Source of the DNA: a virus
IMG/VR virus record: IMGVR_UViG_3300042337_000280
Location: 1 to 24,452 of that record
Strand: one strand, 5' to 3'
Length of the DNA: 24,452 nucleotides
Shown here: one piece after another, positions 653 to 22,868 of the stretch
Layout of the letters: every line of letters starts with the position of its first letter
How positions within the stretch are numbered: position 1 is the first letter of the stretch
Program-made: the position numbers and the translations under genes
Notes under the pieces: model-generated
What the model was told of the DNA's origin: nothing
The model's input: only the letters and a program-made list of their open reading frames with translations
Databases searched by the model: none

Positions 653-771
653 TACTCGGTCCACTGGACCCTGACCAACGCTGCGAAAAACAACGCGGTA
701 AACAGCAGCAGGGGCGACATTCCTGCTGCCAGCATCGCAACCTCGGTCCAGGAATAGTTGGGGCAGGTCAT
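652..771 (-). CDS. Small single-span membrane protein (39 aa)
   Basis: ATG at 771, TAG at 652. The 39-residue product starts MTCPNYSWTEVAMLAAGMSP and has one hydrophobic helix at about residues 11-33 (LLLFTALFFAALV), then a short polar tail RVQWTE. An N-out, C-in single-span topology is possible. It overlaps the following GTG-start gene by one base. The ribosome site is not strong. It is the first gene of the three-gene micro-operon 771-372. Holin, pinholin or antiholin are possibilities based only on size, topology and location. Confidence 0.55.
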   Translation of the reverse strand: MTCPNYSWTEVAMLAAGMSPLLLFTALFFAALVRVQWTE

Positions 772-808
772 AAGAGGTAGGGCATGGTAGTGGCCGAATC
801 TACTACGG

Positions 809-1063
809 CTACGGTTTTGGAACCCACCGCAACGCAGATTCTAAAACCTCGGTTTCAGGATCGTCCGCGAGGTATTGGCCTGCGCTGTTCCGGGGCTGGT
901 CGTAAATCCATTCGCTGCCATCTGGCGCAGTCCATGGTTGGAACCTCGTCGGGTTCTCGGGCCACTGCCATGCCACTGCCTGGAGTCCCGCCTGCAGCCC
1001 ACTGATGAACGCCTGCGGCAGTCGCGACCTGCGATACCATGCGTTCGGCTGTCCAGTGCTACC
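809..1063 (-). pseudogene. 5'-truncated paralogue of the tail protein at 1707-2327
   Basis: An 85-codon open frame between an in-frame TAG (1064-1066) and the TAG at 809. It has no ATG and only a weak internal GTG at 976. The translation aligns with the C-terminus of the tail protein encoded at 1707-2327: LPQAF matches LPAAF, TAPDGSEW matches TSPTGTLY, GQYLADDPETEVLESALRWV matches GQFLPDDPQTPPRESLRWVV, and both end in a Pro-containing tail. Only about the last 65-70 residues of the parent remain. The 5' part is replaced by the leader and promoter of the plus-strand gene at 1131. It reads as the remnant of a duplicated tail gene cut by insertion of that gene. Expression as a 55-aa peptide from GTG is possible but unsupported. 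Confidence 0.65.
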
Positions 1064-1706: not shown

Positions 1707-2327
1707 TCATGGCTCAACCACCACCCACCGCAGGGATTCCCTGGGCGGGGTCTGTGGGTCATCGGGGAGGAACTGCCCATCCTCCCCAGCGGCCTGGGCT
1801 ACCCGGTAGAGGGTGCCGGTGGGGGAGGTCCATTCCTGGCCGAGGTTCTGGGCCGGAGGCGGCACCGTCAGCGCCTCGGTGAAAGCGGCTGGCAGATCAA
1901 ACCCCTGCGCCATGCTCAGCACCCCAGCCAGCAGCTGATCAGAGATCAGGCCCAGCCCACGGGCCATCGACCAGGAGTCGAGAAACACCCGAGCATCCCC
2001 ATCGGCAGCCTTGCCGAGGCCCACACCCAACCCAAGGCCTAGGGCCGGAAGCTGCTGCAGGGCCGTTCCTAGGAGTTGATTGATCGCCTCGGAGGCCTGC
2101 ACTGCGGAGCCAAACTGCACCCACTGAGCATCGGACTGACCATTGATTCCCCAAAATGCTTCGGCTATCTGGCGACTGTCAAACCAGTACCAATCATCTA
2201 CTGGGTAGATGTAATCAGCGTGGTTTGCGGCGGTTAGCGTAAATCCTGGCGCGTAAACGCTGGTGCCTGCATACTGGAGCAGGTCATCGGTGAACTTGTA
2301 GAAACCGGGGTAGGACATGGCGATCAT
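1707..2327 (-). CDS. Distal tail or fibre-associated protein
   Basis: Starts at ATG 2327 (MIAMSYPGFYKF), whose first A is the last base of the preceding gene's TAA (TAATG). A second in-frame ATG is three codons on, and an upstream ATG at 2345 would overlap the fibre gene by 19 nt. It encodes 206 aa: an aromatic-rich N-terminus (YIYPVDDWYWFDSRQ), a Gly/Leu-rich middle (LGLGLGVGLG) and a C-terminal module ending ESLRWVVVEP. That C-terminal module recurs in the broken copy at 809-1063. It is the last gene of the structural operon and directly follows the fibre, so a role at the fibre (chaperone, tip or accessory subunit) is an inference from position. No family is recognised with certainty. Confidence 0.7.
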   Translation of the reverse strand: MIAMSYPGFYKFTDDLLQYAGTSVYAPGFTLTAANHADYIYPVDDWYWFDSRQIAEAFWGINGQSDAQWVQFGSAVQASEAINQLLGTALQQLPALGLGLGVGLGKAADGDARVFLDSWSMARGLGLISDQLLAGVLSMAQGFDLPAAFTEALTVPPPAQNLGQEWTSPTGTLYRVAQAAGEDGQFLPDDPQTPPRESLRWVVVEP

Positions 2328-3967
2328 TAGGCGGTAACGGTCCACCCTTTGGCGGTGGCAATGGTGGGGTCGTAGCCTGCTCCATTGATGCCGTAGTTGC
2401 CGGTTACAGTGATTGTTTGGCCGGTAACAACAGGCAGGCCGGTGAATAGTTCGTTCAGTGCGGCGGCTGATAACTTGCAGCTGGCTACAGAGAATGAGAA
2501 GCGCATTCCTGTAAGCTGGGCACGGGCGAGGGATGAGCAGTTGGCGACAAAGTTTGCGGCATTTGCTGCTGAGGAAATGCCGCTCATGTCAAGCGGCGGG
2601 ATGCTTTCCAGGGAGGTGCAGCCTTGGAACATGCTGCTCATGTTCGTAACTGCTGCAACACTGCCTGGAAATACAGGGATTGTTTGCAGACTGCTGCAGC
2701 TTTGGAACATGCTGCTCATGTTCGTAACTGCTGCAACACTGCCTGGAAATGCAGGGATTGTTTGCAGACTGCTGCAGTTTTGGAACATGCTGCTCATGTT
2801 CGTAACTGCTGCAACACTGCCTGGAAATACAGGGATTGTTTGCAGACTGAAGCAGCCTTGGAACATGCCGCCCATGTTCGTAACTGCTGCAACACTGCCT
2901 GGAAATACAGGGATTGTTTGCAGACTGCTGCAGCTTTGGAACATGGTAGCCATGTTCGTAACTGCTGCAACACTTCCTGGAAATGCAAGGATTGCTTGCA
3001 GACTGCTGCAGCCGCTGAACATGCTGCTCATGTTCGTAACTGCTGCAACACTGCCTGGAAATACAGGGATTGTTTGCAGACTGGGGCAGCCGCTGAACAT
3101 GCTGCTCATGTTCGTAACTGCTGTGGCATTAGGCAGTGACGGCAGCGATTGCAATGAGCGGCAGCCCTGAAACAGGGTTGATGCCATACTCGTCAACGCA
3201 CCAACCGATACAATGTTGATCCGCTCTACATTTGCGTGAACAACAGTCGTCGAACCCCCAATCGTTAATCCCGTGCCACTGACCTGCGGCAATGCCATCG
3301 CAATATCCAGCCATCCTGTCGCATAACCATTCACCAACCCCGTCTGTCCATGCTTCTGAAAGAAGTTGGCAACTGTTAGGTTCTGTCCTGCCTGTGGTGT
3401 AATCGTCACTACCGCCACCTTATACGGCAGCAACGTGGCCGAACCGTCACCCGTAAACGTTACCGGACTGCCGCCAGCAGTCAGCGAAACTTGGAACGTA
3501 TTTGCTGCTGCATTAACAACAAAATACCGCTGCTTCGCAACAATTCCCGTTGTGGTAACAATGCTGTAGAACCGTACAATCGCGCCATTGCTCAGCCCAT
3601 GAGCCGTGCGGTTGACAGTGCTAGTTGCAGCCGTAAACGTAACCGGCGCATTCGTTCCAGCCAGCGCAGCAGAGTTAAAGTCAAACTCATAATCTGCTCT
3701 GGCATTGCTTGCATAGTTCGTCGTCGTCCCATCGCCATAATTGATGATGTAGGCGCCTTGGGCTAAGAATGCGAAAAAGTTGCCACCCTTGCCAACACCA
3801 TCGCCAGGCCACACCGCATAGAGGCCAACGATCTTCTGCTCTGCCGCGCCAGGTGCGGTCAACGCTGGCCACGCCGCATTTCGCACCCACTCGTCAGCCG
3901 CTGCACCACCCGCACCGCCTGCTACCAGCGTGCTGCCCAGATAGATTTTCCCAGTAGTCGTAGGCAT
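2327..3967 (-). CDS. Tail fibre with BspA-like leucine-rich repeats
   Basis: A 546-aa protein. Residues 1-60 form an N-terminal virion-type region. Residues about 70-100 (YIINYGDGTTT, YEFDF) and 180-205 (LPYKVAVVTITPQAG) look like two halves of a PKD-like beta-sandwich seen in phage fibres. Between them, about 107-178, sits a second module (NRTAHGLSNGAIVRF, NTFQVSLTAGG) of the FCCH type common in phage tail proteins. Residues about 266-470 carry seven near-identical 26-residue repeats of the form MFxxCxSLQTIPVFPGS followed by AAVTNMSS, i.e. BspA/DUF285-type leucine-rich repeats used for surface binding. The C-terminus is ITVTGNYGINGAGYDP and onward. The likely role is receptor recognition at the virion surface. 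It starts 2 nt after the upstream fibre's stop. Repeat identity at DNA level implies recent expansion or ongoing recombination. Confidence 0.8.
   Translation of the reverse strand: MPTTTGKIYLGSTLVAGGAGGAAADEWVRNAAWPALTAPGAAEQKIVGLYAVWPGDGVGKGGNFFAFLAQGAYIINYGDGTTTNYASNARADYEFDFNSAALAGTNAPVTFTAATSTVNRTAHGLSNGAIVRFYSIVTTTGIVAKQRYFVVNAAANTFQVSLTAGGSPVTFTGDGSATLLPYKVAVVTITPQAGQNLTVANFFQKHGQTGLVNGYATGWLDIAMALPQVSGTGLTIGGSTTVVHANVERINIVSVGALTSMASTLFQGCRSLQSLPSLPNATAVTNMSSMFSGCPSLQTIPVFPGSVAAVTNMSSMFSGCSSLQAILAFPGSVAAVTNMATMFQSCSSLQTIPVFPGSVAAVTNMGGMFQGCFSLQTIPVFPGSVAAVTNMSSMFQNCSSLQTIPAFPGSVAAVTNMSSMFQSCSSLQTIPVFPGSVAAVTNMSSMFQGCTSLESIPPLDMSGISSAANAANFVANCSSLARAQLTGMRFSFSVASCKLSAAALNELFTGLPVVTGQTITVTGNYGINGAGYDPTIATAKGWTVTA
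2615..3130 (-). repeat. 78-bp tandem repeat array inside the fibre gene
   Basis: The marker GTTCGTAACTGCTG (plus-strand reading) begins at 2642, 2720, 2798, 2876, 2954, 3032 and 3110, exactly 78 bp apart, giving seven copies of a 26-codon unit. More diverged half-units extend to about 2598 and 3170. Copies differ mainly at a few codons, next to the conserved Cys (P/S/F/R/T) and in the I-P-V/A positions. The period is a multiple of three, so gain or loss of units keeps the reading frame. Confidence 0.9.
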
Positions 3968-8224: not shown

Positions 8225-9919
8225 CTATGAATCCCCTTCCGTACCCATTCCCGGCAGAGCAGCCGCTGTCGTCCCATTCTGTTGCTCAGGCAGGCCCAGC
8301 CTTCTCCGCAACGCCACCTCGTACGCAATCTGCGCCCAAGTGCTCTCCAGATCAGTTCCATAAAGCTCTGCCATCTGGTCAGAGGTTGACTGCAGTCCCA
8401 TTTCCTGCGCATCCTTATACGCTTTCATCTCCTTCGCGGGATCTACCCAGCTCCATGTGCGGGCCTGCCAGCGTGGGGACGTGTAAAGCTCTGGCTCGTT
8501 CCAATAGTTGCCAAATAACTCAACAGGCAAAACGCCAGCCATTACGGCAGCATCAACCCATTCTTCAAACACTCGCTGGTGGAATTGCTGGATAAACAAA
8601 GACTGCATAACCCGATACCAATCCCGAACCTCCAGCTTCTCTTCACGCATGGAGCTGTAATTAGCATCACTGTGATCGCCGCTGATTGCTGAGTAGCTGC
8701 TGGTAATGCCAGTCGAAAACCGGCGCAGCATTGTCTTTAGTACAATCTCAAACTGGTTATCATCAGGGCCAAATTGCGGCGGATACGGCTGCTCCCCAGG
8801 ATTCAGCTCAACCCATTGCCCCGGTGAGCTGCGAGACAGTATCTCCCCAGTGCTTGGGTCTTGCTCATCCGCCAAACCTGAGGATGCCCCTTCATTGGGA
8901 TCCTCTTCCTTCTTGCCGACAAACCCAAGAATGTTGTTGACAATCCGCTTCCGGGTCCAGTGGGACTTTTCATATTCGTTGATATTGTGAATCGTCGTCA
9001 GAACTGGCGCTAGGTGGGGGATTTCACGGAGCTGCCCGATTTCATCGGGAATGAAAACATGAATCAAATCCCTTGCGTCTACAAAATAATGCTTAGGCTC
9101 ATTGCTCAGTGGATCGCCTGGGTCGCTATTGCCCGGGTGCCGCCGCAATACCGCATACCGCGTAACACGTCCGCCACGACGATCATCGGTCTCAACACCA
9201 AGTCGCCAAAAATGGCCAGGCCGATCTGACATGCCATTGTAATCTTCATCAAGCTGATCAACGCTCAATAACTCGAAGCAAAGCTGTTCACGTCTAGGAT
9301 TATTATTGGCAGATGATCGAATAATTCGAACCATTGCGCCACCGTGCGTTTGAAACGCACCAGCAATCATCAGCTCAAACTGATGAAACGAATATCGCCC
9401 GGCAAGATCAAACGTATCAGGCTTGCAAAACTGCTTCCACTTCGCTTCCAGAACTTGATTCCTGACATCATCACGCTCTAGCGCAGTCTGCGCCAGAATC
9501 ATTCGATCAAGCGCTGCATCCAATGCTCGCCCTTGCTCACCCCTCGCCAGCAGCCGTGCAATCTCCATTGATACCTCAGCCCGCGCCCTGCCCGCTTGTC
9601 GATCGCTCCGGCCACCAAGCGGGATCTGACCACGCATCTGCACACCTCGGGCGCCAATCACATTGATCTGCATGCTCCGCACTGCACGCCGGGCATACGG
9701 ATTCAACAGCGCCTGATAACGACACTTAGACCTAATCCCTTTCAATCCACCCCGCAGCATCGCCTGAGGATCGACAAACACTCCAGGCATGTCGCCCAAC
9801 AGTCTTCCCCCAAGGTGGCCTGCTAGCCCTTGCTGCGCCCGCGCTTTTCGTGCTCGCGGGCCAGGGCCAGACTCCCAAACCCTGCGAGCAAAACCCTTCG
9901 CTCTGCCAATCAAACTCAT
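8225..9919 (-). CDS. Portal protein, lambda gpB-like family
   Basis: A 564-aa protein, in the usual range for lambda-type portals. Typical features in order: a basic N-terminus, LKGIRSKCRYQALLNPYARRA then INVIGARGVQMRG (about 60-98); KQFCKPDTFDLAGRYSFHQFELMIAGAFQTHGG spans the conserved central helix; FELLSVDQLDEDYN; KHYFVDARDLIHVFIPDEIGQLREIPHLAPVL is the membrane-distal wing segment; AISGDHSDANYSSMREEKLE is the portal signature; and WSWVDPAKEMKAYKDAQEMGL is the conserved C-terminal block. It forms the dodecameric DNA gate at one head vertex and contacts the terminase. Its ATG overlaps the upstream connector gene's TGA by four bases, and the capsid gene starts 26 nt after its stop. Confidence 0.93.
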   Translation of the reverse strand: MSLIGRAKGFARRVWESGPGPRARKARAQQGLAGHLGGRLLGDMPGVFVDPQAMLRGGLKGIRSKCRYQALLNPYARRAVRSMQINVIGARGVQMRGQIPLGGRSDRQAGRARAEVSMEIARLLARGEQGRALDAALDRMILAQTALERDDVRNQVLEAKWKQFCKPDTFDLAGRYSFHQFELMIAGAFQTHGGAMVRIIRSSANNNPRREQLCFELLSVDQLDEDYNGMSDRPGHFWRLGVETDDRRGGRVTRYAVLRRHPGNSDPGDPLSNEPKHYFVDARDLIHVFIPDEIGQLREIPHLAPVLTTIHNINEYEKSHWTRKRIVNNILGFVGKKEEDPNEGASSGLADEQDPSTGEILSRSSPGQWVELNPGEQPYPPQFGPDDNQFEIVLKTMLRRFSTGITSSYSAISGDHSDANYSSMREEKLEVRDWYRVMQSLFIQQFHQRVFEEWVDAAVMAGVLPVELFGNYWNEPELYTSPRWQARTWSWVDPAKEMKAYKDAQEMGLQSTSDQMAELYGTDLESTWAQIAYEVALRRRLGLPEQQNGTTAAALPGMGTEGDS

Positions 9920-10473
9920 GGCTCAAACCTCACAAGGATTCTGCGGCTAGATGCCACACCCTGAGCCAACGCCTCAGCACGCCGCGCAGCCGCAACCCTG
10001 CTAATCAAGTCGTCGCGCTCCTTTCGTAATTCAGCTAGATCCGCACGTCGCACCTTTCGACCGCCAGATCCCAATGCACCAACCTGATACTCCTGCGCAC
10101 CGCTTACCAGTGCCCTGATCGCTTCCTTAATCGCATCCAGATCAATCTCATCTTGGCTGCGATCATCAAATGCTCCAGGCGTGCCGCTAAACGCCAAACT
10201 GCGGCGCACCGTCAGACCGCCACGCCTTACCGTGTGAGACGCTCCGTCGATCGTTGCCACCACCTGCAGCGCCCAATCACCTGCAGCCATTGCAGAGGTG
10301 ACCTGCGCTGTTAGCTCAATCATCCAACCATCTGCTGTATTCACTCCAACCGCCTGAGCGCCAGCCCCAGCTGCCTTTCCTCGCAGCCAAACAGTCACCC
10401 CCTGCGCACCAACTGGCACGTCAGGTTCAACCCATCTAATCCGGTCTCCCTGGTATAGCTCCTTGGGATTCAT
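9916..10473 (-). CDS. Head-tail connector, gpW-like with N-terminal beta domain (probable)
   Basis: Start chosen at ATG 10473 (MNPKELYQGDRIRWVEPD), 4 nt after the terminase stop. An upstream ATG at 10494 lies inside the terminase gene. The 185-aa protein has an N-terminal beta-sandwich-like part (about 5-95, VTVWLRGKAAG, WALQVVATIDGASHTVRRGG). Its C-terminal helical part (DLDAIKEAIRALVSGAQEYQ, then VRRADLAELRKERDDLISRV) has the helix, beta-hairpin, helix pattern of gpW-type joining proteins. The order large terminase, gpW, portal is the classical lambda order. The N-terminal extension is longer than in lambda gpW (about 68 aa), so this is a two-domain version. The assignment rests on C-terminal pattern plus synteny. 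Confidence 0.65.
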   Translation of the reverse strand: MNPKELYQGDRIRWVEPDVPVGAQGVTVWLRGKAAGAGAQAVGVNTADGWMIELTAQVTSAMAAGDWALQVVATIDGASHTVRRGGLTVRRSLAFSGTPGAFDDRSQDEIDLDAIKEAIRALVSGAQEYQVGALGSGGRKVRRADLAELRKERDDLISRVAAARRAEALAQGVASSRRILVRFEP

Positions 10474-10477
10474 CGGC

Positions 10478-12409
10478 TCACGACTGCAAATCAAATACTC
10501 GGCGTCGTGGGCGCCGCTTCCCTCCCAAGCCTACCGATGACAACCGCTGCGCCTCAATCAACCGCTCCAGCTGGTCCCACATCGTCGCCCGTGAATACCG
10601 CCGCGCCACCAACTGCAGCGCTGCATACGCCATCCTCGTACAGTCCCCCGCCTCATCCCTGCTACCGGTCGGCTTGTCCCATTTGTACTCTCGCTTGCCG
10701 GCACCCTTCTTTGGCATCTTCTTCCACGGGAACAGCTCTGCCAAAAACTGATCCGTAGCAGCCTCACCAAAATGCAAATATCCAGGCCCAGGTTTCTCCT
10801 GCCGTAATCTCCCCTGCAGATGCTGAATACTTGTCTCATACCCCACCGGATACATCAGCACACCTTTCTTAATCACACTCTGATTCTTCCTGTTGATATT
10901 CACCGGCACTCCCTTACCGATCAGCGGTTTACCCTTGCTCTCTGAACCCTTCATCGGCACCCATCTGCCCACCCTGGTGCGGCACCAGTCCCGTACTTCA
11001 TGCGTCGCATATCCACCATCATCAATACCACCTAACGCAATCTGCAGCTCTGCCCCATCCTCACGCTTCCATTTCGTCTCCAGCACTGCATCCAACTGAT
11101 TCAACGTCTCAACCTGCTGTGGGTCGCCATCGATCTCAAAATGCCCCACATGCCAACCTTCCTCTCCCCTCCCCCATCCCCATATCGTCACCACCAGCCG
11201 CTCAGCCATCGCACCACCGCCGCCCTGTACGTCAACGCCAGCGGTCAACACCAACACACCATTCGGCACCACGTCCGCTGGATACCCATTCCCAACTCCT
11301 GCATCCTGCCGCCGCTGAGACAATCCCTCCACATTCAACTTCCCGGTAATCGTGTCCTCCCATGGCACGCCCAACACCGTATTGTGAAACGTCTGCATCG
11401 AATCCGTATCACCCTTCCGCATCATCTCCAGCGCTTCTTGGTACTCACTCACCAGATTTCCCCACTCCGCTCCAGCGTGGTAGCTATACGCTGCCCAGAT
11501 ATGCCTACTCCTTACCCTCGGATAACCATCCTTCAATATCTGCTGGCTACGGTCCAGCCCCAGCGGACATGCCCACCCGCCATGCTCATCCATCCATCGC
11601 AACCTGGCATATCCAATCAACTCATGGCAGTTCTCACATTCATACTTCCCCGCATCCTCGCCTTCCTTTCGCATCTGCTCCCACCTCAGCACCTGATACT
11701 CCCCGCAATGCGGACACGGCAAGTACCGGTACTGCTGGTCACCCTTCTTAAACCACTGGTGCGTTTTATCATCAGGATAAATTGGCGTCCCGCCAATGAT
11801 CGTCTTGCGGTTCCAGGTGGTGGCCGATCGATTCATCCCTAGCTTGATCTGATCACCTTCGTCGATCGCGTCATACGCTGACGGTTCCTCAAATATCACT
11901 ACCGTCCGTTCCTTACGCCGAAACCCCTTACCACTGGCAGCGCTCACAATATCGATCAGCCCGCCATTGGTGAGCTTTTTAAGCAGGATGGTATTCGTCG
12001 CCGTTCCCCTAGCCTTCGACTCAGCCAGTAACCCCTGCAAACATGGCGAATCCCTAAACAAATCCGATATATCTTCCTTACTATACTCTTCCGCATCATT
12101 CTGCACCGGCTGCACAATCATGATCTTGCTCGGCTTCCAATGCGAGTAATACTGCACCGCGCCGATCTTCACGCACTCGGACCATCCCACACGGGCTGAC
12201 TTCATGCAAACCTCCACTTCCACATATGCACTGGTAAATCCATAAAACCAGTCACGCTGATACGGCCTAGTCGTCCACTTACCTTTACTCGCTGCATTAC
12301 CCGTAACATGACCATACGTGTCCGCATACTCAACCCCGTTCAACAGCGGCCGTGGCCTGAAGCATTCCGCCAAGCTCCGAGCCATACTTATCCGATCGCG
12401 GCTGATCAT
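10478..12409 (-). CDS. terL: Terminase large subunit, GpA family
   Basis: A 643-aa protein, close to lambda gpA in length. The ATPase part has a Walker A-like MKSARVGWSE (69-78, Lys70) and a Walker B region TVVIFEEPSAY (169-179), followed by the coupling segment RKTIIGGTP (201-209). A zinc-binding pair, CPHC (232-235) and CENC (258-261), is typical of this family. The C-terminal nuclease has acidic residues in LTAGVDVQG (Asp393) and GGIDDGGY (Asp463/464), and ends with PGYLHFG and the basic tail GGKRRPRRR. It cuts and pumps DNA into the prohead through the portal. The Walker B acidic pair reads Glu-Glu where an Asp-Glu is usual. Its ATG overlaps the small-subunit stop (ATGA). Confidence 0.95.
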   Translation of the reverse strand: MISRDRISMARSLAECFRPRPLLNGVEYADTYGHVTGNAASKGKWTTRPYQRDWFYGFTSAYVEVEVCMKSARVGWSECVKIGAVQYYSHWKPSKIMIVQPVQNDAEEYSKEDISDLFRDSPCLQGLLAESKARGTATNTILLKKLTNGGLIDIVSAASGKGFRRKERTVVIFEEPSAYDAIDEGDQIKLGMNRSATTWNRKTIIGGTPIYPDDKTHQWFKKGDQQYRYLPCPHCGEYQVLRWEQMRKEGEDAGKYECENCHELIGYARLRWMDEHGGWACPLGLDRSQQILKDGYPRVRSRHIWAAYSYHAGAEWGNLVSEYQEALEMMRKGDTDSMQTFHNTVLGVPWEDTITGKLNVEGLSQRRQDAGVGNGYPADVVPNGVLVLTAGVDVQGGGGAMAERLVVTIWGWGRGEEGWHVGHFEIDGDPQQVETLNQLDAVLETKWKREDGAELQIALGGIDDGGYATHEVRDWCRTRVGRWVPMKGSESKGKPLIGKGVPVNINRKNQSVIKKGVLMYPVGYETSIQHLQGRLRQEKPGPGYLHFGEAATDQFLAELFPWKKMPKKGAGKREYKWDKPTGSRDEAGDCTRMAYAALQLVARRYSRATMWDQLERLIEAQRLSSVGLGGKRRPRRRVFDLQS

Positions 12410-13005
12410 CCCGCTACCTCCCCTTCCGTAAACTCCCAGTCCGCTACGTTCTGCAGAAACTGATTCACCAACTTCGTTACAATGTCCTGCTCTTCTACCG
12501 TAAGATGCGGGATCTGGTTCTTAATCTGCTGCGGCAAACTCAACGCCTGATCCTGCAACGTCAGCGCCACCGCCTTCTGCGCTTGCTCTACATCATCCCG
12601 ATACACCAGCTTCCCCTCCAGCAGCTCGCGCTCTACCTGCAGCTTCAGTTTCTTTTCGTACTCAGTCCAGGCGCGTTCTGTGTTGAAGTCTGGTGTGTCG
12701 CCATCAGCATCAGCAGGGCGCTTCTCTGACTGAGCTGCATCACTTCTGACGGCCATCCGTTCCTTCGCTGGCCGCAACGGCTTCTGCGCTGCTTCCACAG
12801 GCGCTTTTCGGCTGCCATGCTTGCTCTTCGTCTTCGGCACCTTCGCCCACGCATCATGCAGACCCTCCCGCCGCACATGCCGCACACCATTCACCAGCAC
12901 CTCGTCGAGAAACCCGTTCTCGATCGCCCGGTAAACCTGATTCCTACTCGTCAGCCCCAGCACTGCCGCAGCATCACGAATAGTCAGCAGCTCAGTTCCC
13001 GCCAC
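12406..13005 (-). CDS. Terminase small subunit, Nu1-like (probable)
   Basis: A GTG start at 13005 is forced by an in-frame TGA two codons upstream. The protein has 199 aa. N-terminal residues 5-45 (LLTIRDAAAVLGLTSRNQVYRAIENGFL) form a MerR/excisionase-type winged helix, as in small terminase DNA-binding domains. A charged linker (about 50-110) follows, then a long helical C-terminus (WTEYEKKLKLQVERELLEGK, and DIVTKLVNQFLQNVADWEF) suited to oligomerisation and large-subunit binding. Position directly before terL supports the call. It would bind the packaging site to start DNA encapsidation. The TGTCAC operator cluster at 13007-13054 directly abuts the start codon, so this gene and the late operon below it are probably repressor-controlled. 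Confidence 0.8.
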   Translation of the reverse strand: MAGTELLTIRDAAAVLGLTSRNQVYRAIENGFLDEVLVNGVRHVRREGLHDAWAKVPKTKSKHGSRKAPVEAAQKPLRPAKERMAVRSDAAQSEKRPADADGDTPDFNTERAWTEYEKKLKLQVERELLEGKLVYRDDVEQAQKAVALTLQDQALSLPQQIKNQIPHLTVEEQDIVTKLVNQFLQNVADWEFTEGEVAG

Positions 13006-13006
13006 G

Positions 13007-13054
13007 TGTCACATTCGCTTGTCACAATCTATCTGTGACAGAATCTATGTGACA
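13007..13054. promoter_or_regulatory. Nested TGTCAC/GTGACA operator at the late-operon start
   Basis: TGTCAC at 13007-13012 and 13020-13025 is mirrored by GTGACA at 13035-13040 and 13049-13054. The inner and outer pairs are both centred near 13030, forming a nested palindrome. On the minus strand, TAGATT hexamers between the sites could serve as -10 elements for transcription into the small terminase gene, so a bound dimer or tetramer would block or position polymerase. The regulator is not identified. Confidence 0.55.
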
Positions 13055-13133
13055 GGCCGGTTCTCCTGTGGTGGTGCTGGGGTGGGGGATATACTGGCCG
13101 GTTATTGCGAAACAGTCACATAACGATAGCATG

Positions 13134-13290
13134 TTCTCAATAGAGAAAACAGGCGTCGGAACTAGCCGCTCGACCCTCAATAGGAAGGACCCAGATCCGT
13201 TGCAGCGCAAGGGTTCTCACTTGCGAGGCGTATTGAGAATCAATAGGCTGGCTTCCTTATTGAGAATGCCAGTGATACTAAGGGTTCTCA
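13134..13290. repeat. Repeated TTCTCAATA motifs in the terminase upstream region
   Basis: TTCTCAATA at 13134-13142 is part of the perfect palindrome TTCTC-AATA-GAGAA (13134-13147). Its reverse complement TATTGAGAA occurs at 13231-13239, where TATTGA-GAA-TCAATA (13231-13245) is again palindromic, and at 13258-13266. A partial copy CTCAATAGG lies at about 13177. The 11-mer AAGGGTTCTCA occurs at 13209-13219 and 13280-13290. No gene is supported in 13055-13287 on either strand, so these look like protein-binding sites. Factor unknown. Confidence 0.45.
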
Positions 13291-14025
13291 GCGAAAGCCA
13301 GCCCTTGCCAGCTCTGCCCGTGCATACCGCTCGATCTCACCAGGCCAGTAGATCCGCACCTGCTCTTGCAGGTCGCCCTTGAGGTCGTAGGTGCTGGCTC
13401 TGCGCTTTGGATTTGGTTCAAGGATCCACTTGAGCTTCGTTCCCTTAAAGCTCTTGTATTCCCCAGGCCCTGTGCGCTCGAAGATGCCGTAGCGACCTGG
13501 GCCACCCTTGATCGGGATGATGAAGATCCGGTTAGCACGATTGACCATCGTGCCGGTCTTCCTGATCGACGCCCAGCCCGTGAGCGCCTTGGTGTAGGCA
13601 GCACGTGTGACGTTGCCTTTGCTGTCCTTGCGCTGCGAACGAGTGGGGACCATCGTGACCCTGCTGCCCACAAGTTCAGAAGCTGCCAGGTCTGCGCCCT
13701 TGGTGCGTGGCTCTGTGCCTTGCGTGAGCACAGAGATGTAGCGACCAGCAGCACGTGGCCGATCAGTGCGCAGGCCAACCTCAGCCACTAGGTTCTGAGG
13801 TGTGGGTCGTTCGTGATAGGTGGCGTTGTAGGTCCAGGCTGTGGCACCGCCTTCAATGCGGTTACTGCGGTTGGTCTTCAGATCATCCTTGAGCCAAGCC
13901 TGGGTCTTGATCACGGTGTCGCGCAATGCACGGCCACTGGCATAGCGCAGGTTCTTCTCGGTGAGCAGCTCCAGCCCTCGTATTGAGCGGTCGAGACCAG
14001 TTGTATCGAGGCGGATGTCGAGCAT
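13288..14025 (-). CDS. Tail-completion / minor tail protein, HK97 gp10 / gpZ-like (probable)
   Basis: A 245-aa protein, MLDIRLDTTGLDRSIRGLEL and onward. The opening, including ALRDTVIKTQAWLKDDLKT, matches the N-terminal helical pattern of gp10/Z-type tail-completion proteins that cap the neck side of the tail. The C-terminal half has FERTGPGEYKSFKGTKLKWI, resembling the ERTGxGxxKxLfxf strand of that group. It is unusual in lying upstream of the small terminase, separated by 282 bases, and not after the head-tail joiner. A hairpin with a T-rich tail sits just before its ATG. The family call rests on pattern, not on a catalytic motif. Confidence 0.6.
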   Translation of the reverse strand: MLDIRLDTTGLDRSIRGLELLTEKNLRYASGRALRDTVIKTQAWLKDDLKTNRSNRIEGGATAWTYNATYHERPTPQNLVAEVGLRTDRPRAAGRYISVLTQGTEPRTKGADLAASELVGSRVTMVPTRSQRKDSKGNVTRAAYTKALTGWASIRKTGTMVNRANRIFIIPIKGGPGRYGIFERTGPGEYKSFKGTKLKWILEPNPKRRASTYDLKGDLQEQVRIYWPGEIERYARAELARAGFR

Positions 14026-14028
14026 GAG

Positions 14029-14050
14029 TAAAACCCCGCTGCAGGCGGGG
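14029..14050 (-). terminator. Rho-independent-type hairpin upstream of the 14025 gene
   Basis: Minus-strand reading: CCCCGC-CTGCA-GCGGGG followed by TTTTA. The 6-bp GC stem pairs 14034-14039 with 14045-14050. The T-run ends 4 bases before the ATG at 14025. It could end transcripts coming from the primase side or act as an attenuator for the tail-completion gene. Confidence 0.5.
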
Positions 14051-14100
14051 CGTGCGTCCCATTGGCGCCAGGGTCAGTCTGGGTAGGTGTCAGCAGGGCC

Positions 14101-14400
14101 AGGCAAGCCGTTACACCCGAAACAGGGCGTTACAAGATTCGTAACACCCCAAACCCAAGCCCCCCACTCAAATACAGGCCCTCCTGTTACACTGTTACAC
14201 CTATTCAAGAAAAGGTATAAGTAAAGAGAGAGTTGGGGACGTATCACTGTGGAGGGGTGTGGGTGTGGATGTATGTGCCTTTATGGGGGGCTGTATCCCT
14301 TGGCCGGCGTAACGCGTAACAATTCCCCCAGATCGCAGCCCACCACTCAAAAACAGGCGAAACACCCAACGTAACCACCGAAACGGTTTTCGGTAGCAGC
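14101..14400. other. Candidate replication origin: GTTAC iterons with AT-rich patch
   Basis: No gene is supported in 14026-14409. GTTAC/GTAAC pentamers occur at 14110, 14129, 14141, 14186, 14194, 14309, 14316 and 14371. Arrangements include an inverted pair (GTTACAAGATTCGTAAC, 14129-14145), direct pairs (TGTTACACTGTTACACC) and GTAACGCGTAAC. A purine/A-rich, GC-poor stretch at about 14200-14232 (TTCAAGAAAAGGTATAAG) follows the direct pair. A 15-bp direct repeat (CACTCAAAxACAGGC, one mismatch) lies at 14165-14179 and 14344-14358. A hairpin ACCGAAA-CGGT-TTTCGGT occupies 14377-14394. Iterons plus an unwinding-type stretch beside the primase-helicase gene suggest an origin bound by that protein, as in P4-type systems. 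This is inference. Confidence 0.4.
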
Positions 14401-14409
14401 GTGAACAGT

Positions 14410-17049
14410 TCAGCCTTGAATAGTTCGTATGGGCACAGAAACCGCTCGACTGACCGAACCGATGCCTTTGAATCGGATCACGCCTGCTCGAACTGCTCCA
14501 GGGATGCGGGAGAGGACGGTTGCCCAGCTATGAGCCCATGGCGTATCGGACAGGATGCGCTCGATGCCCTTGGCGGTGTTGGAGATGAAGAGGTTGCCAT
14601 CTTCGGTTTTGATGCCGATTCGTCCGAGGTGCGCCTCTGCGGTATCTGGGGTGATGTCGATGGATGAGGCTGTGTGGTTGGCGATTTCCACAAGCTCGCC
14701 GATGGTGCGTGTGAAGGCTTGACGATCCGTCTCAACCCTGAGCTGATGTTGAAGGATGGTTTGGAGGCAGCGGTGTTCGTCGGGTTCGGCGTTGGCTTCT
14801 TTGTATGGCTGCCAATCGTTCTGATCAATGAGTGTGTAGGCGTCGGCTTCGGTGGCGACGTGCTGGTTCATCAGGGACCATGCACCGGCGAGTAGGGTGC
14901 CGTACTGGTCACCTTCACGTTGGGAGTCGAAGCGATCAGCGGCAGCACGGCGAAAGGCAGCGACTGAATCGCGGATGATTGATATGGAGCGTACGGAGCG
15001 GTGAAGGAGGCGATGGCCTGCGGTGGTGGTGATGATGCGTGTGAGGTCAGCGTCTAGGGCAGACCAGTGAGCGATGCGGTCTGATTTAGGGAGGTAGGAG
15101 GGGTTACGAAGTGTGAGCTGAGCGAAGCGTGAGCGATCGGCGCCTTGCTTAAGGGCGGTGGAAATGGAGCACATGAGGAACATGGAGCGAACGGTGAAGC
15201 GCTGTGCGGCACCGTCAGCGCCACCTTTACCGATCACCCCACGGCCACTGGATGATGCGACGCGAGCTAGGGCGAGGATGTCTTGAATGCGTTTGCGGTC
15301 GGACTGTTCGTTGGATTCGGCTTCGTCGAAGATGACGGGGAGAGCGTCGGAGCGCAGTTCTTGGCGGATGAATGCTTCAGTGGTGTTGCCTTCAGGCCAT
15401 AGGGCGAGGGATTCGAGGATGGGGCCAAGGAAGCGGTTAAGGATGGCGGATTTGCCGGAGCCTGCGGATGCTGTGAGCCAGATGTGTGGGCGCCAGGAGA
15501 GTGCACCACAGATGGGCGCGAGTGCGAGCCAGCCGGCCAGGAGGATGCCGGATGCGGGGACTTCCCAGTGGAAGCGAGAGGCGATGTCTAGGAGTTCGGC
15601 GCCTTCGTGATCGGTGAGTGGGGTGATGTCTAGGGGGATCTCGATGGATGTGAGGCGCTGGTAGTTGAAGCGTGATGGCGGTGGGGCCATGACGGAATGG
15701 GAGATGCCGTCAACGATGAGGCGATCACCGAGGTGCAGGATGGAGCGGTTGTCATCGATCCATGCACCACGACCGCGGATGCGATCGGGGGAGTAGACAC
15801 CGGTGCGTGCTTGGCGAGCGAGGAGCGAGGATACGGCTGATTGCCAGTCAACGCCGGATTTGGAGGGGTAGATGGTTTGCCAGTAGGGGAGTTCGGCTAG
15901 GCGCAGGAGGTTGTTTGTGGAGTGACCGGGTGCGGTGAGGCGTATGACCTGGCCGGTGTTGCCGGGTTGGTAGTAGTAGGAGTCACCATCGAACCCGAGG
16001 CATGTGAATGGTGCGTTGTCTGGAATATCTGGCGGTGGTGTGGGTGGTTGGTTTTGGTGTTCCGGTTCTGGATCTGGTGTGGGCTGAGGATCAGGGAGGG
16101 TATCGATTAGGCGTGCGTGTGCTGCGAGTTCGGTAGCGGCGCGTTGAGGCGTCCATGAGGTGGGCGCATCAGCGAGGTCCCATTTGTGTGGGGTATTGGG
16201 TGGGGGGTTAACGATGGAAACGGTGCAGCCGATGCGTTGAAGGCGTGGCGCGAGTTTGGCCATGCACTGACGGCCGGGATCGTCGTTATCGGGCCAGATG
16301 GTAACGGTGCGAGCTGAGAGGGGTGACCAGTCGGTGTGTTGTACGCCTGCGACACCACCACACCAGGCGATGCAGACGTGATTAGGGAATAGGGGTGCTG
16401 CAGCGTCGGCTGATTTTTCGCCTTCGGTGATTAGGACCGGAGCGTTTGGGTTGGCGGTGAGTTTGTGGAGGTTGTAGAGGGGGCGAGGTGCGGGCCAGTG
16501 GGAGTCGAAGGGATCTTCATTGCTGGGGAAATGCCACTGGTTATCAAGCCAGGTGCGCTGGACAAAGAGTTTTTGCGGTTCGCCGTTCTTGGGTGGCTTA
16601 GGGATGCGCTGCACCCAGAACAGCTGGTTGCCGTCAGCGTCGGTGTAACACCACTGGGCGACGGCACGCCCGAGCGAAGGCGGCGGTGTACCTACTGGTG
16701 GTGCGGCTGGTGTGCGATGTGGCCGCTTGGATTTCTTGGGTGCGGACACGGCGGGTGATGGCAGGCCGAGGTGTTGTTCGATGCGTGAGACAGCCTGTTT
16801 GAAGTCCCATCCGGTGACGCGCAGGAGCAGGTCCATACCGGTCATGCCGCCGCCCTGCTGGTTCTTGCCGCCGCATTGATTGCAGTAGCAGCCACCGGGG
16901 CCATCGTCGTTATCCCAGCGGAAGCGGTCGGTGCCGCCGCAGGATGGGCATGGCTGGTGTTTATTGGTTAGCTGATCAGGCGAAATGCCGCCAAGGGATT
17001 GCAGCAGCTCCGGCCAGCGACCGGCTGTGAGGTCGTTGATGGAGCGCAT
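14410..17049 (-). CDS. Phage primase-helicase (zinc, TOPRIM and P-loop ATPase domains)
   Basis: An 879-aa multidomain protein. A zinc-binding primase domain lies at 34-59 (CPSCGGTDRFRWDND, then CYCNQCG). A TOPRIM-type domain has LITEGEKSADA (206-216) and WPDNDDPGRQ (252-261), the acidic residues that bind metal for primer synthesis. A Pro-rich linker (318-345) separates it from a C-terminal ATPase with Walker A TASAGSGKSA (526-535) and Walker B PVIFDEAES (571-579). The combination and length fit self-sufficient phage replication initiator/primase-helicases. It would prime and unwind phage DNA at its origin. The ATG lies 8 nt after the RHH gene's stop, so the two are co-transcribed, and the downstream non-coding region has origin-like repeats. 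Confidence 0.88.
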   Translation of the reverse strand: MRSINDLTAGRWPELLQSLGGISPDQLTNKHQPCPSCGGTDRFRWDNDDGPGGCYCNQCGGKNQQGGGMTGMDLLLRVTGWDFKQAVSRIEQHLGLPSPAVSAPKKSKRPHRTPAAPPVGTPPPSLGRAVAQWCYTDADGNQLFWVQRIPKPPKNGEPQKLFVQRTWLDNQWHFPSNEDPFDSHWPAPRPLYNLHKLTANPNAPVLITEGEKSADAAAPLFPNHVCIAWCGGVAGVQHTDWSPLSARTVTIWPDNDDPGRQCMAKLAPRLQRIGCTVSIVNPPPNTPHKWDLADAPTSWTPQRAATELAAHARLIDTLPDPQPTPDPEPEHQNQPPTPPPDIPDNAPFTCLGFDGDSYYYQPGNTGQVIRLTAPGHSTNNLLRLAELPYWQTIYPSKSGVDWQSAVSSLLARQARTGVYSPDRIRGRGAWIDDNRSILHLGDRLIVDGISHSVMAPPPSRFNYQRLTSIEIPLDITPLTDHEGAELLDIASRFHWEVPASGILLAGWLALAPICGALSWRPHIWLTASAGSGKSAILNRFLGPILESLALWPEGNTTEAFIRQELRSDALPVIFDEAESNEQSDRKRIQDILALARVASSSGRGVIGKGGADGAAQRFTVRSMFLMCSISTALKQGADRSRFAQLTLRNPSYLPKSDRIAHWSALDADLTRIITTTAGHRLLHRSVRSISIIRDSVAAFRRAAADRFDSQREGDQYGTLLAGAWSLMNQHVATEADAYTLIDQNDWQPYKEANAEPDEHRCLQTILQHQLRVETDRQAFTRTIGELVEIANHTASSIDITPDTAEAHLGRIGIKTEDGNLFISNTAKGIERILSDTPWAHSWATVLSRIPGAVRAGVIRFKGIGSVSRAVSVPIRTIQG

Positions 17050-17057
17050 GCGAGGTG

Positions 17058-17255
17058 TTAGGCGATGCCGCGGCGTGCGGAACGAGCAGCGCGGCGCATG
17101 TGATCAGCGATGAGCTGGCGTATGAAGGCAGCACGTGAGAGGCCAACGAGATCGCGTTCGCGGTCGACGTGCGCCATGAGTTCAGGGGATAGGCGGATGG
17201 CGGTGGAGGAAGCGCGTAGCTGGTGGTTGGGGTTTTGAGAGAAGGGGGCGTTCAT
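17058..17255 (-). CDS. Ribbon-helix-helix DNA-binding protein (65 aa)
   Basis: Start taken at ATG 17255 (MNAPFSQNPNHQLRASSTAI). An upstream ATG at 17342 would add 29 residues of non-conserved character. The core STAIRLSPELMAHVDRERDL and onward, GLSRAAFIRQLIADHMRR, has the strand-helix-helix pattern of Arc/CopG regulators. A basic tail (RAARSARRGIA) follows. Such dimers bind operator DNA. As first gene of the primase operon, next to the repeat-rich divergent region, it is a good candidate for autoregulation or copy control of replication genes. The ribosome site is weak. Confidence 0.7.
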   Translation of the reverse strand: MNAPFSQNPNHQLRASSTAIRLSPELMAHVDRERDLVGLSRAAFIRQLIADHMRRAARSARRGIA

Positions 17256-17337
17256 GTGGTGGAGCGTTCTGAGGCAGCCTACCGCAGCATTTCCGGAACT
17301 GGTGTGGTATGGTTTCGGTGTTGCCGATTCGCCGGTG

Positions 17338-17835
17338 ACCACCTACGCCGTCCAACTCTTCGCTACGCCTCGCCACGCATCGCCTCGCGCCGTGTCGCAT
17401 CGCCAACCACCGGGGGGCTTCGGCCCCCACACCCCACCCCTGAGCTTCCGGCTCATTGGTGGGCTGATTGTCCACCACCTACGCCTCGCGCCGCTACGCA
17501 TGGCGCCGCATCGCCAACCACCGGCCCCCGTCACTGGGGGCACCCCATCACCTGCTGCAGGCGCATAAGCCGAGCGGGTGCAACACCACCGCGCAGATGC
17601 TCCCATCGGCGCCACGCTGTGCCAATCGCTGCTCCGCTCTGCTGATCAGCGCATATCAACGAGGGGGCCTAGTGGCCCCCGCCCACACCCCAGCTCACAG
17701 CATCAGCTGTCTGGTGGGCTGTGCTCACCATTCGCAGCCACGCTTTGCCGTCCCACTCTTCGCTACGCATCGTCCGCAACGCGCCGCATACGCAGGGGGC
17801 TTCAGCAATGAGACCCCAACCATTTCACTCTTGAA
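17338..17835. repeat. Divergent intergenic region with direct repeats and GC hairpins
   Basis: The 620 bases 17256-17876 hold no supported gene. GCCGTCCxACTCTTCGCTACGC occurs at 17347-17368 and 17747-17768, 400 bp apart with one mismatch. CGCATCGCCAACCACCGG occurs at 17396-17413 and 17507-17524, and ACCACCTACGCC at 17338-17349 and 17474-17485. Hairpins follow or lie near these: GGGGGC-TTCG-GCCCCC (17413-17428, a UUCG tetraloop in RNA), GCCCCC-GTCACT-GGGGGC (17524-17541) and GGGGGCC-TAGT-GGCCCCC (17663-17680). The first and third are followed by a similar C/A-rich string (CACACCCCA). It lies between divergent operons and probably combines transcription signals with an unknown repeat function. 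Confidence 0.6.
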
Positions 17836-22014: not shown

Positions 22015-22290
22015 ATGGACAACATCACACAGGTAAAGCAGCAGCTCGACACGTTGCTGCTGGAGCTAGAGCAACGGGAGACCGCAACAGCCCATGCGAT
22101 GGAGACCCTCACTGTGGACGACCGTGTGAGGGCTGCTTGGGTAGAGGCGACGATGGCTGAACGGTTCAGGGTGCTGGCGCTGATCGATGCACAGATTGGC
22201 CAGTTGAACGGCGCGGGGATGAACACGATCCTGTTGCGCTCGTTGCGCGGGGTGGTGGCAACAGAGACCAACAACGGAGACAACCAATGA
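22015..22290 (+). CDS. Small helical protein (91 aa), possible coiled coil
   Basis: ATG at 22015, directly after the ssb stop. The protein is almost all helix: ITQVKQQLDTLLLELEQRET shows regular Leu spacing, followed by DDRVRAAWVEATMAERFRVL and NTILLRSLRGVVA. It has no DNA-binding or catalytic motif. Its TGA overlaps the next ATG (ATGA), indicating coupling. It could be a small adaptor of the replication module. Function unknown. Confidence 0.65.
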   Translation: MDNITQVKQQLDTLLLELEQRETATAHAMETLTVDDRVRAAWVEATMAERFRVLALIDAQIGQLNGAGMNTILLRSLRGVVATETNNGDNQ

Positions 22291-22868
22291 TTACAGCACA
22301 GGAACTAGAGCTGCACGCCAAATCGCTGCGCGGCGAACCTGATGGTGTGCGACTGGTGAAAGTCGGGGCCGACCTGCGCGATTCCGACCTGCGCGATGCC
22401 TTCCTGCGCGATGCCGACCTGCGCGATTCCGACCTGCGCGATGCCTTCCTGCGGGGTGCCGTCCTGCGCGATGCCTTCCTGCGCGATGCCGTCCTGCGGG
22501 GTGCCGTCCTGCGCGATGCCGTCCTGCGGGATGCCGTCCTGCGGGGTGCCTTCCTGCGGGGTGCCGACCTGCGCGATGCCGTCGGCCTACCAATAGCAGC
22601 CGATGCAGCTGATCGCCTGAAAGCTGTAGCCGCTGCAGCATTACAACCTGATGCGCTGCAGATGTCCAATTGGCATACATGCGGCACCACGCATTGCATT
22701 GCGGGCTGGGCTATTCACTTGGCGGGCGAACCTGGCCGGCTGATGGAGTCAATGATGGGTCCAGAACTTGCTGGGTTGTTGTTGCTAGGGACAGAAGCGC
22801 ATCAGCATTTCTATGACAGGAATGAGAAGGCGCTGGAGTATTTGCGCGGGGTGGTGGCTGATGGCTGA
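22287..22868 (+). CDS. Pentapeptide-repeat protein with CGTTHC C-terminal domain
   Basis: A 193-aa protein. Residues about 26-95 are 14 consecutive pentapeptides of the form (R)(D/G)(A/S)(D/F/V)L, which fold as a right-handed square beta-helix. The C-terminal part (about 127-190) contains SNWHTCGTTHCIAGWAIHLA, then EPGRLMESMMGPELAGLLLL and a helical end. This domain recurs after pentapeptide repeats in cyanobacterial and phage proteins. Some pentapeptide proteins mimic DNA and protect gyrase, so interaction with a host topoisomerase or DNA enzyme is one possibility. The repeat loops here are unusually uniform. Its start overlaps the previous gene and its end overlaps the next. Confidence 0.8.
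   Translation: MITAQELELHAKSLRGEPDGVRLVKVGADLRDSDLRDAFLRDADLRDSDLRDAFLRGAVLRDAFLRDAVLRGAVLRDAVLRDAVLRGAFLRGADLRDAVGLPIAADAADRLKAVAAAALQPDALQMSNWHTCGTTHCIAGWAIHLAGEPGRLMESMMGPELAGLLLLGTEAHQHFYDRNEKALEYLRGVVADG
22368..22583 (+). repeat. 15-bp tandem repeats encoding pentapeptides
   Basis: Fourteen in-frame copies of a unit close to CTGCGCGATGCCGTC, with changes limited mostly to GAT/GGG and GAC/TTC/GTC codons. The near-identity at nucleotide level indicates recent slippage-type expansion. Because the unit is 15 bp, unit loss or gain keeps the frame. The apparent Arg- and Pro/Cys-rich open frames on the other strands here are mirrors of the repeat. Confidence 0.85.

Follow-up and report, generated by a model that had tools for sequence, protein, structure and literature searches.

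A putative iteron origin behind a phage primase-helicase gene, with box letters that covary with the C-terminal domain of the encoded protein

The gap at positions 14026–14409 of the DNA analysed here is very probably the replication origin of the phage, with iterons bound by the C-terminal domain (residues 757–879) of the phage's own primase-helicase. The analysed stretch, hereafter the window, is the 24,452-base IMG/VR virus record IMGVR_UViG_3300042337_000280. Comparison with relatives shows that the box array in the gap is a conserved element tied to the primase gene, and that its letters change in step with both the C-terminal domain and residue 859. Direct contact between primase and array, melting, helicase loading and origin activity are what we infer beyond this; a start of replication at the array is suggested by its architecture and by the analogy with SaPI Rep and Cch2. 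A described origin for this phage family was not found in the open-licence PMC literature; as far as our literature search reaches, the novelty lies in this phage family, in how many matched versions it has and in the predictive residue.

Intermediate states should fail when a multi-copy origin changes its letters along with its initiator, which makes such changes puzzling. One family here offers at least ten matched origin/initiator versions and confines the switch to one or two residues. How specificity shifts could be tested directly, using short DNA fragments and a single small domain, and the protein sequence offers a means of predicting the letters of the origin.

Table 1. Features of the array region and of the primase-helicase gene in the window.
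Feature	Position	Strand	Basis or remark
Terminator-like hairpin with T-run, directly ahead of the next gene	14030–14050	−	Sequence reading
Iteron box	14110–14114	−	In many relatives, one extra box between this box and the 14129 box
Iteron box	14129–14133	−	Box reading and array comparison
Iteron box, opposite orientation, 45 bp past pair B	14141–14145	+	Box reading and array comparison
Iteron box, pair B	14186–14190	−	Box reading and array comparison
Iteron box, pair B	14194–14198	−	Box reading and array comparison
AT-rich candidate unwinding element adjoining pair B	14199–14228	.	Sequence and 73 anchored arrays
Central spacer, pair A to AT-rich element	14229–14308	.	In relatives, letters vary and length is roughly kept
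Iteron box, pair A	14309–14313	+	Box reading and array comparison
Iteron box, pair A	14316–14320	+	Box reading and array comparison
Iteron box nearest the primase stop	14371–14375	+	Strand is the one reading GTAAC
Short hairpin ACCGAAAACCGTTTCGGT directly past the primase stop	14377–14394	−	Sequence
Primase-helicase gene (879 residues)	14410–17049	−	Profile matches and structure model
Primase-helicase domains (residues): zinc ribbon 29–62; DnaG/T7-type Toprim primase about 116–320; AAA+ helicase about 467–754; C-terminal domain 757–879			
C-terminal domain (residues 757–879), proposed iteron-binding domain	14413–14781	−	Divergence tracks box type
Codons for residues 855–860 (AGVIRF)	14470–14487	−	V857 and R859 in β-strand 853–859; columns best tracking box letters
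Gene for a small ribbon-helix-helix protein, immediately upstream of the primase	17058–17342	−	Not universal in relatives

The original prediction, made from the letters of the window, was of eight GTTAC/GTAAC boxes in a gene-free stretch, and both points were borne out. Exactly eight boxes occur at 14110–14375 (Table 1), all within the 384-bp gap between the stop of the primase-helicase gene and the next minus-strand gene (13288–14025). The gap holds no open reading frame of at least 60 residues (ORF 14401–14667 merely touches its edge), and a 57-residue frame inside it grouped just 7 loci. The box density exceeds that of random shuffles (8 boxes seen, against a mean of 0.63 and a maximum of 6 in 20,000 mononucleotide shuffles of the gap), and the array is the densest 300-nt box cluster of the window, with the highest count elsewhere being 4, in a coding tandem repeat. 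The window-wide count of 44 boxes against 18 expected is no clean test of enrichment, because seven of the 44 sit in a 78-nt tandem repeat. This repeat (2617–3123; 6.5 copies, 92% matches) lies inside the minus-strand ORF 2327–3967, and its seven boxes read GTTAC. The A-rich stretch that had been noted with the boxes was likewise recovered, beside the pair at 14186 and 14194. The orientation of a single box is a matter of the central base only, because GTTAC and GTAAC are reverse complements that differ there; orientation gains meaning only through comparison with relatives.

Relatives were collected by a scan of viral contigs, which gave 233 loci with this primase; the best 80 of these, at 50–100% identity, were taken first. 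At least 300 nt follow the primase stop in 76 of the 80 loci, with too little sequence in L013, L040, L065 and L076. Among these best 80 of 233, 74 of the 76 loci carry the array immediately past the primase stop, down to a primase identity of 50–51%, and the other two, L024 and L025, have none behind the primase gene. A box of five or six letters is present at least five times in 71 of the 74 arrays, the boxes being mixed in L052, L054 and L055. Read on the primase strand at pair B, the box of the window is GTAAC, and those of the relatives include GTTAC, GTAGAC, GTGAG, GCAAC, GTTAG, GGAAC, GGTAC, GGGAC, GTAAG and GTGAC. Each array repeats its own box word, and the pattern of forward and reverse boxes is common to the relatives.

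The layout is largely fixed, with inverted pairs about 115 bp apart, an AT-rich element adjoining one pair, and then spaced boxes. Layout statistics were taken from 73 anchored arrays, leaving out L039, L066 and the three mixed arrays. In these, the second box of pair B lies 8 bp (50 arrays) or 9 bp (23 arrays) past the first, and the boxes of reverse pair A are found about 115 and 106 bp ahead of pair B. Past pair B, a reverse box stands at 51–53 (56 counts), followed by forward boxes at 63–65 (50), 74–76 (47) and 82–86 (49). The 20 nt ahead of pair B average 71% A+T, against 34–53% in other bins. A change of letters across the whole array with the spacing kept is the trace that a site-specific binding protein of drifting specificity would leave. 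The genes flanking primase and array vary among relatives, both the small gene ahead and the gene behind the array (a minor tail protein, a ribbon-helix-helix-like gene or others), and the primase is constant. In the window, the gap is followed by a phrog_1924 minor tail gene and then by terminase genes, on the same strand as the primase. One relative, L039, has a hybrid origin (about 8840–8909), in which pair A and the primase C terminus are of the GTGAG type and pair B and the right flank are of the GTTAC type. Its right flank is 92% identical to L044 and its left flank 86% identical to L034, with the junction inside the origin; the hybrid reflects either a recent recombination event or a misassembly.

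Box type was compared with the primase sequence in 55 primase representatives, of which 51 could be labelled by eye; L013 and L040 have no downstream sequence, L024 has no array and L039 is the hybrid. On the primase tree of the 51 labelled, dereplicated primases, the ten box labels change 13 times (17 times on the same tree if unlabelled, no-array and hybrid rows count as extra states). Pairs of primases at least 90% identical in the helicase part (residues 361–760) have C termini 89% identical when they share a box (31 pairs), against 46% when their boxes differ (nine pairs, which amount to about two switches because eight of the nine set L035 or L037 against their neighbours). A permutation scan of 22 windows along the protein gave z-scores of 3.5, 3.3 and 6.7 for residues 761–800, 801–840 and 841–880, and at most 2.2 for the rest. 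Clear tracking of box type is confined to the last 120 residues of the primase. Among pairs at least 80% identical over residues 761–877, 36 share a box and none differ; over the shorter stretch 801–877, one different-box pair appears, L023 and L038 (83%), with GGTAC and GGAAC. As the C terminus and the array are adjacent, cassette exchange alone would link the two and give co-inheritance without proving contact, and some switches look like exchange of such a cassette (L026 and L035).

At the level of single columns, residue 859 tracks the last base of the box. In the first set it is arginine in 40 of 40 primases with a C-ending box and tryptophan or tyrosine in 11 of 11 with a G-ending box, and for the last base this column tops the whole protein (z-score of 30.8, with 12.1 for the next column); column 857 tops the protein for the whole box, the z-scores in both cases ignoring relatedness. 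The rule for residue 859 was written before new loci were fetched, and boxes were called by a program that saw DNA only and was blind to the protein. Its calls agree with the labels given by eye in 66 of 76 labelled loci, comprising 64 of 66 at a score of at least 5 (the exceptions being L039 and L063) and two of ten below; L024, L025 and L039 were unable to agree by construction. A complete 3′ end was present in 137 of 153 new loci; these 137 yielded 45 new primases, 31 of them at a score of at least 5; L185, with a match ending at residue 286, was dropped, which leaves a test set of 30.

Residue 859 predicts the last base in 30 of the 30 test primases, with arginine and C in 21 and tryptophan or histidine and G in nine; strictly unseen are 29 of 29, because the cultured phage S-H1 (L111) was examined before the rule was written. 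Histidine at this position is absent from the first set. The test set is unseen yet not independent, because identity to the closest first-set primase is 75% or less for 17 members and 88–95% for nine. Overall, the residue at 859 and the final base of the box agree with the rule in 81 of 81 primases, including the 29 that were unseen at rule writing. On a tree built without the C terminus, the residue and the base each change eight times, and six of six independent pairs agree (p = 0.031). The signal in this single column, with its eight changes and its persistence in unseen sequences, is the main argument for a direct contact, which these comparisons suggest.

Residue 857 is a weaker predictor than residue 859. 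In the test set, valine goes with GTAAC in ten of 11 cases, lysine with a second-position G in seven of seven, and proline as predicted in one of three; L249, L177, L233 and L088 break the rule. Valine at 857 was compared with GTAAC in 11 independent pairs, of which on average 9.3 agree, 1.7 are the same and none are opposed (median p = 0.004), and lysine agrees in five of five pairs (p = 0.06).

A scan of bacterial genomes extended the comparison to more distant relatives. Here 55 of 58 loci were taken (L292, L296 and L320 end before the C terminus); 52 had enough sequence, 39 were new, and eight reached a score of at least 5. Arginine at 859 goes with a C-ending box in five of five cases (L281, L291 and L305, and L280 and L312 with the word completed by eye). 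In the distant L304 and L308 (Verrucomicrobiales, 39–40% identity), residue 859 aligns as lysine with a C-ending box, and in L313 (Paraburkholderia) as serine with a GTCAT box, in a doubtful alignment. Because of these three loci, the code at 859 is taken to hold in the core family and to loosen or change in distant kin. Eight further genomic loci have arginine at 859 and, by eye, mixed GTTAC/GTCAC boxes, none of them called at a score of 5; the relatives with histidine at 859 (L176, L183, L283, L266 and L276) have boxes that end in G by eye and lie below the score threshold.

We think it rather likely that these columns form a readable origin code, in which arginine as against tryptophan, tyrosine or histidine at 859 would set the last iteron base to C or G, and residue 857 (valine; alanine, proline or threonine; lysine) would bias the bases before it. 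The whole array of about 8–14 boxes would be rewritten with each residue change, about eight times for the last base alone, and origin and C-terminal domain would form an exchangeable identity module. Rivals that target the origin, or incompatibility of co-infecting phages, may drive exchange of this module.

The primase-helicase matches the phage DNA primase family phrog_35358 in a profile search (E-value of 7.4e-138, residues 343–877). The full-length AlphaFold model has a mean pLDDT of 80 and a pTM of only 0.49. Its residues 116–316 align with DnaG and T7 gp4 (Z-scores of 13–15) and its residues 467–754 with MCM-type AAA+ helicases (Z-score of 10.5 over 242 residues with 6mii). SCCmec Cch (5dgk) aligns with the helicase part (Z-score of 9.7 and r.m.s.d. 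of 6.4 over 317 residues). At an E-value of 0.1, 46 primases matched 22 Pfam families, and DUF927, the family of the Cch sequence, is not one of them.

The C-terminal domain modelled alone reaches a pLDDT of 88 and a pTM of 0.80. The model has a winged-helix-like order of helices and strands with a β-hairpin at the end, residues 857 and 859 being on the first strand of the hairpin; the proposed iteron-binding domain is predicted to be winged-helix-like. A Foldseek search of this model against solved structures gave no rows at an E-value of 0.001 or below (best E-value 0.56), and a sequence search of the C-terminal third against the sequences of solved structures gave no matches at an E-value of 10. 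A second structure aligner ranked SaPIBov1 Rep residues 452–554 (8tch_A) first, with a weak Z-score of 5.3 and r.m.s.d. of 3.4 over 87 residues, followed by a relaxosome DNA-binding protein and, lower, Cch (Z-score of 3.6). Such low scores towards SaPI Rep and Cch are a hint only, albeit one towards proteins to which the literature ascribes this mode of action.

The original prediction had assigned the reading of the boxes to the adjacent primase-helicase. Comparison supports this, since the array stays with the gene, the C-terminal windows covary with the boxes and residue 859 predicts boxes that were unseen. In the mechanism that we propose, the C-terminal domain, with V857 and R859 in β-strand 853–859, would bind the GTAAC iterons, and two primase-helicase assemblies would form on the inverted pairs. 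Melting of the AT-rich element (about 14199–14228) would follow, and the same primase-helicase would unwind and prime the DNA.

By analogy, we conclude that the array and its primase-helicase probably work like the downstream origins of SaPI Rep and SCCmec Cch2. SaPI Rep is described as an initiator helicase that loads itself and whose C-terminal domain reads numerous short repeats lying just past the gene that encodes it (PMC7581432, citing Ubeda et al. 2007). The present system likewise has an AAA+ core and a short-repeat array directly downstream of the initiator gene, and its C-terminal domain would set specificity, as judged by covariation. Unlike in SaPI Rep, the helicase here belongs to a tailed phage and is joined to a DnaG/Toprim primase, and the boxes are of 5–6 bp in a set asymmetric layout; the structural score is too weak (Z-score of 5.3) to establish kinship. 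For Cch2, residues 400–538 at the C terminus are described as binding a putative origin downstream of the gene (PMC7581432). For Cch2 the reported iterons number only three and priming is left to separate proteins; the primases here have no DUF927 match.

Other systems resemble the present one in single respects. In PLE RepA_N, DNA-binding domain and origin are described as covarying, swapping as a module and working only as cognate pairs (PMC7145576, PMC8263062). The initiator is unrelated, with an N-terminal DNA-binding domain and no predicted primase or helicase, and two origin groups are described, as against at least ten box types here. In geminivirus Rep, one or a few residues are described as changing with an iteron base, and recombination has been proposed to swap both at once (PMC2974675); that Rep is given as a rolling-circle initiator of plant ssDNA viruses, and the protein is unrelated to the primase-helicase here. 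The pRN1 ORF56/ORF904 replicon is described as having a repressor gene, a primase-helicase gene and then an origin behind (PMC4234260). This gene order is shared with the window; the putative pRN1 origin, as given there, is a 100-nt stem-loop, unlike the region in the window. A stem-loop origin was also considered for the window and rejected, the region folding no better than dinucleotide shuffles (z-score of −0.31).

The boxes might instead be operators for another phage DNA-binding protein, such as a ribbon-helix-helix protein, and control transcription, not replication, a reading that we consider improbable. Ribbon-helix-helix proteins are known to bind short iterated boxes, a gene for one lies directly ahead of the primase in the window, and similar-looking small proteins occur ahead of the primase or past the array in many relatives. 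However, the small gene looks unrelated by eye in L034, L039, L042, L043, L045–L048, L050, L051, L062, L063, L072, L075, L076 and L080, those of these loci with enough sequence still carry an array of the same layout, and box type tracks the primase C terminus and one primase residue. A ribbon-helix-helix protein was rejected as the box binder, its gene not being universal in relatives.

We likewise give little credence to a scheme in which the primase binds the array as a site of copy-number control, incompatibility or autoregulation and replication starts elsewhere. The array lies behind, not ahead of, the primase gene, with a terminator-like hairpin next, and the cumulative skew of S-H1 has no extreme at the S-H1 array, all of which would suit a regulatory site. 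Yet the array is the densest box cluster both in the window and in the complete S-H1 genome, its two-sided layout, with an AT-rich element adjoining one pair, matches iteron origins, and SaPI origins are described at the same place relative to the initiator gene (PMC7581432). The small and large terminase genes of the window, about 1–4 kb beyond the array, could point to a packaging or recombination site adjoining them; this is very improbable, as the genes that follow differ among relatives, but the array stays with the primase and its letters track the primase.

Skew gave a divided outcome for the origin reading. The array of the window marks a flip in GC skew, but across relatives it is greater on the right than on the left in only 18 of 32 loci. 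Within 10000–17000 of the window, the sign change of the skew near the array occurs between genes that share a strand. Support for a hairpin between boxes is modest: the paired fraction of cells is 68.8%, compared with 65.6% for shuffles, 7 of 500 of which reach that value, and with 29–48% for slid versions, and the covariation score is equalled by 30 of 500 shuffles. The region had no matches to Rfam noncoding RNA families at gathering scores.

The family has a cultured member, Synechococcus phage S-H1 (MK105819.1), with tryptophan at 859 and 14 GTTAG/GTTCG boxes within the 300 nt that start at 17654, a stretch that surrounds the primase stop and runs on behind it. The origin idea is testable because this cultured phage carries the array and the W859 form. 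The annotated start of AZB50553.1 (MK105819.1 17847–18212, L321) falls inside the S-H1 array, and the true start is probably further on. Relatives of the primase occur in genomes of Synechococcus, Cyanobium and Vulcanococcus. Two of them (L286 and L289) lie 56 kb apart on the Vulcanococcus contig NZ_JACVZV010000018.1, and Synechococcus sp. HJ21-Hayes has relatives on four contigs (L263, L264, L281 and L299); these repeated copies suggest several integrated elements in picocyanobacteria.

The small gene upstream of the primase (L002–L081) is, by eye, ribbon-helix-helix-like in many loci and encodes at least three other, unrelated-looking proteins elsewhere. Among ten small neighbours typed with Pfam, one is a ribbon-helix-helix/NikA-like protein, so that for the remaining small neighbours the label ribbon-helix-helix-like is a reading by eye. 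Dense GTTAC arrays were also seen directly behind other replication genes, at 61–293 of L086, 2067–2375 of L096 and 5629–5968 of L089, a biased sample chosen by a 17-mer that holds two boxes. The genes ahead of these arrays encode a DUF3987 protein with a Fis-type helix-turn-helix, a DUF3854 protein and a VapE-like protein, and tblastn with five primases of the family gave no matches in these three loci at an E-value of 1e-4. Elsewhere in the window, a 15-nt repeat at 22368–22583 (14 copies) lies inside ORF 22287–22868 and would encode AVLRD/ADLRD-like pentapeptides, the unit being read by eye.
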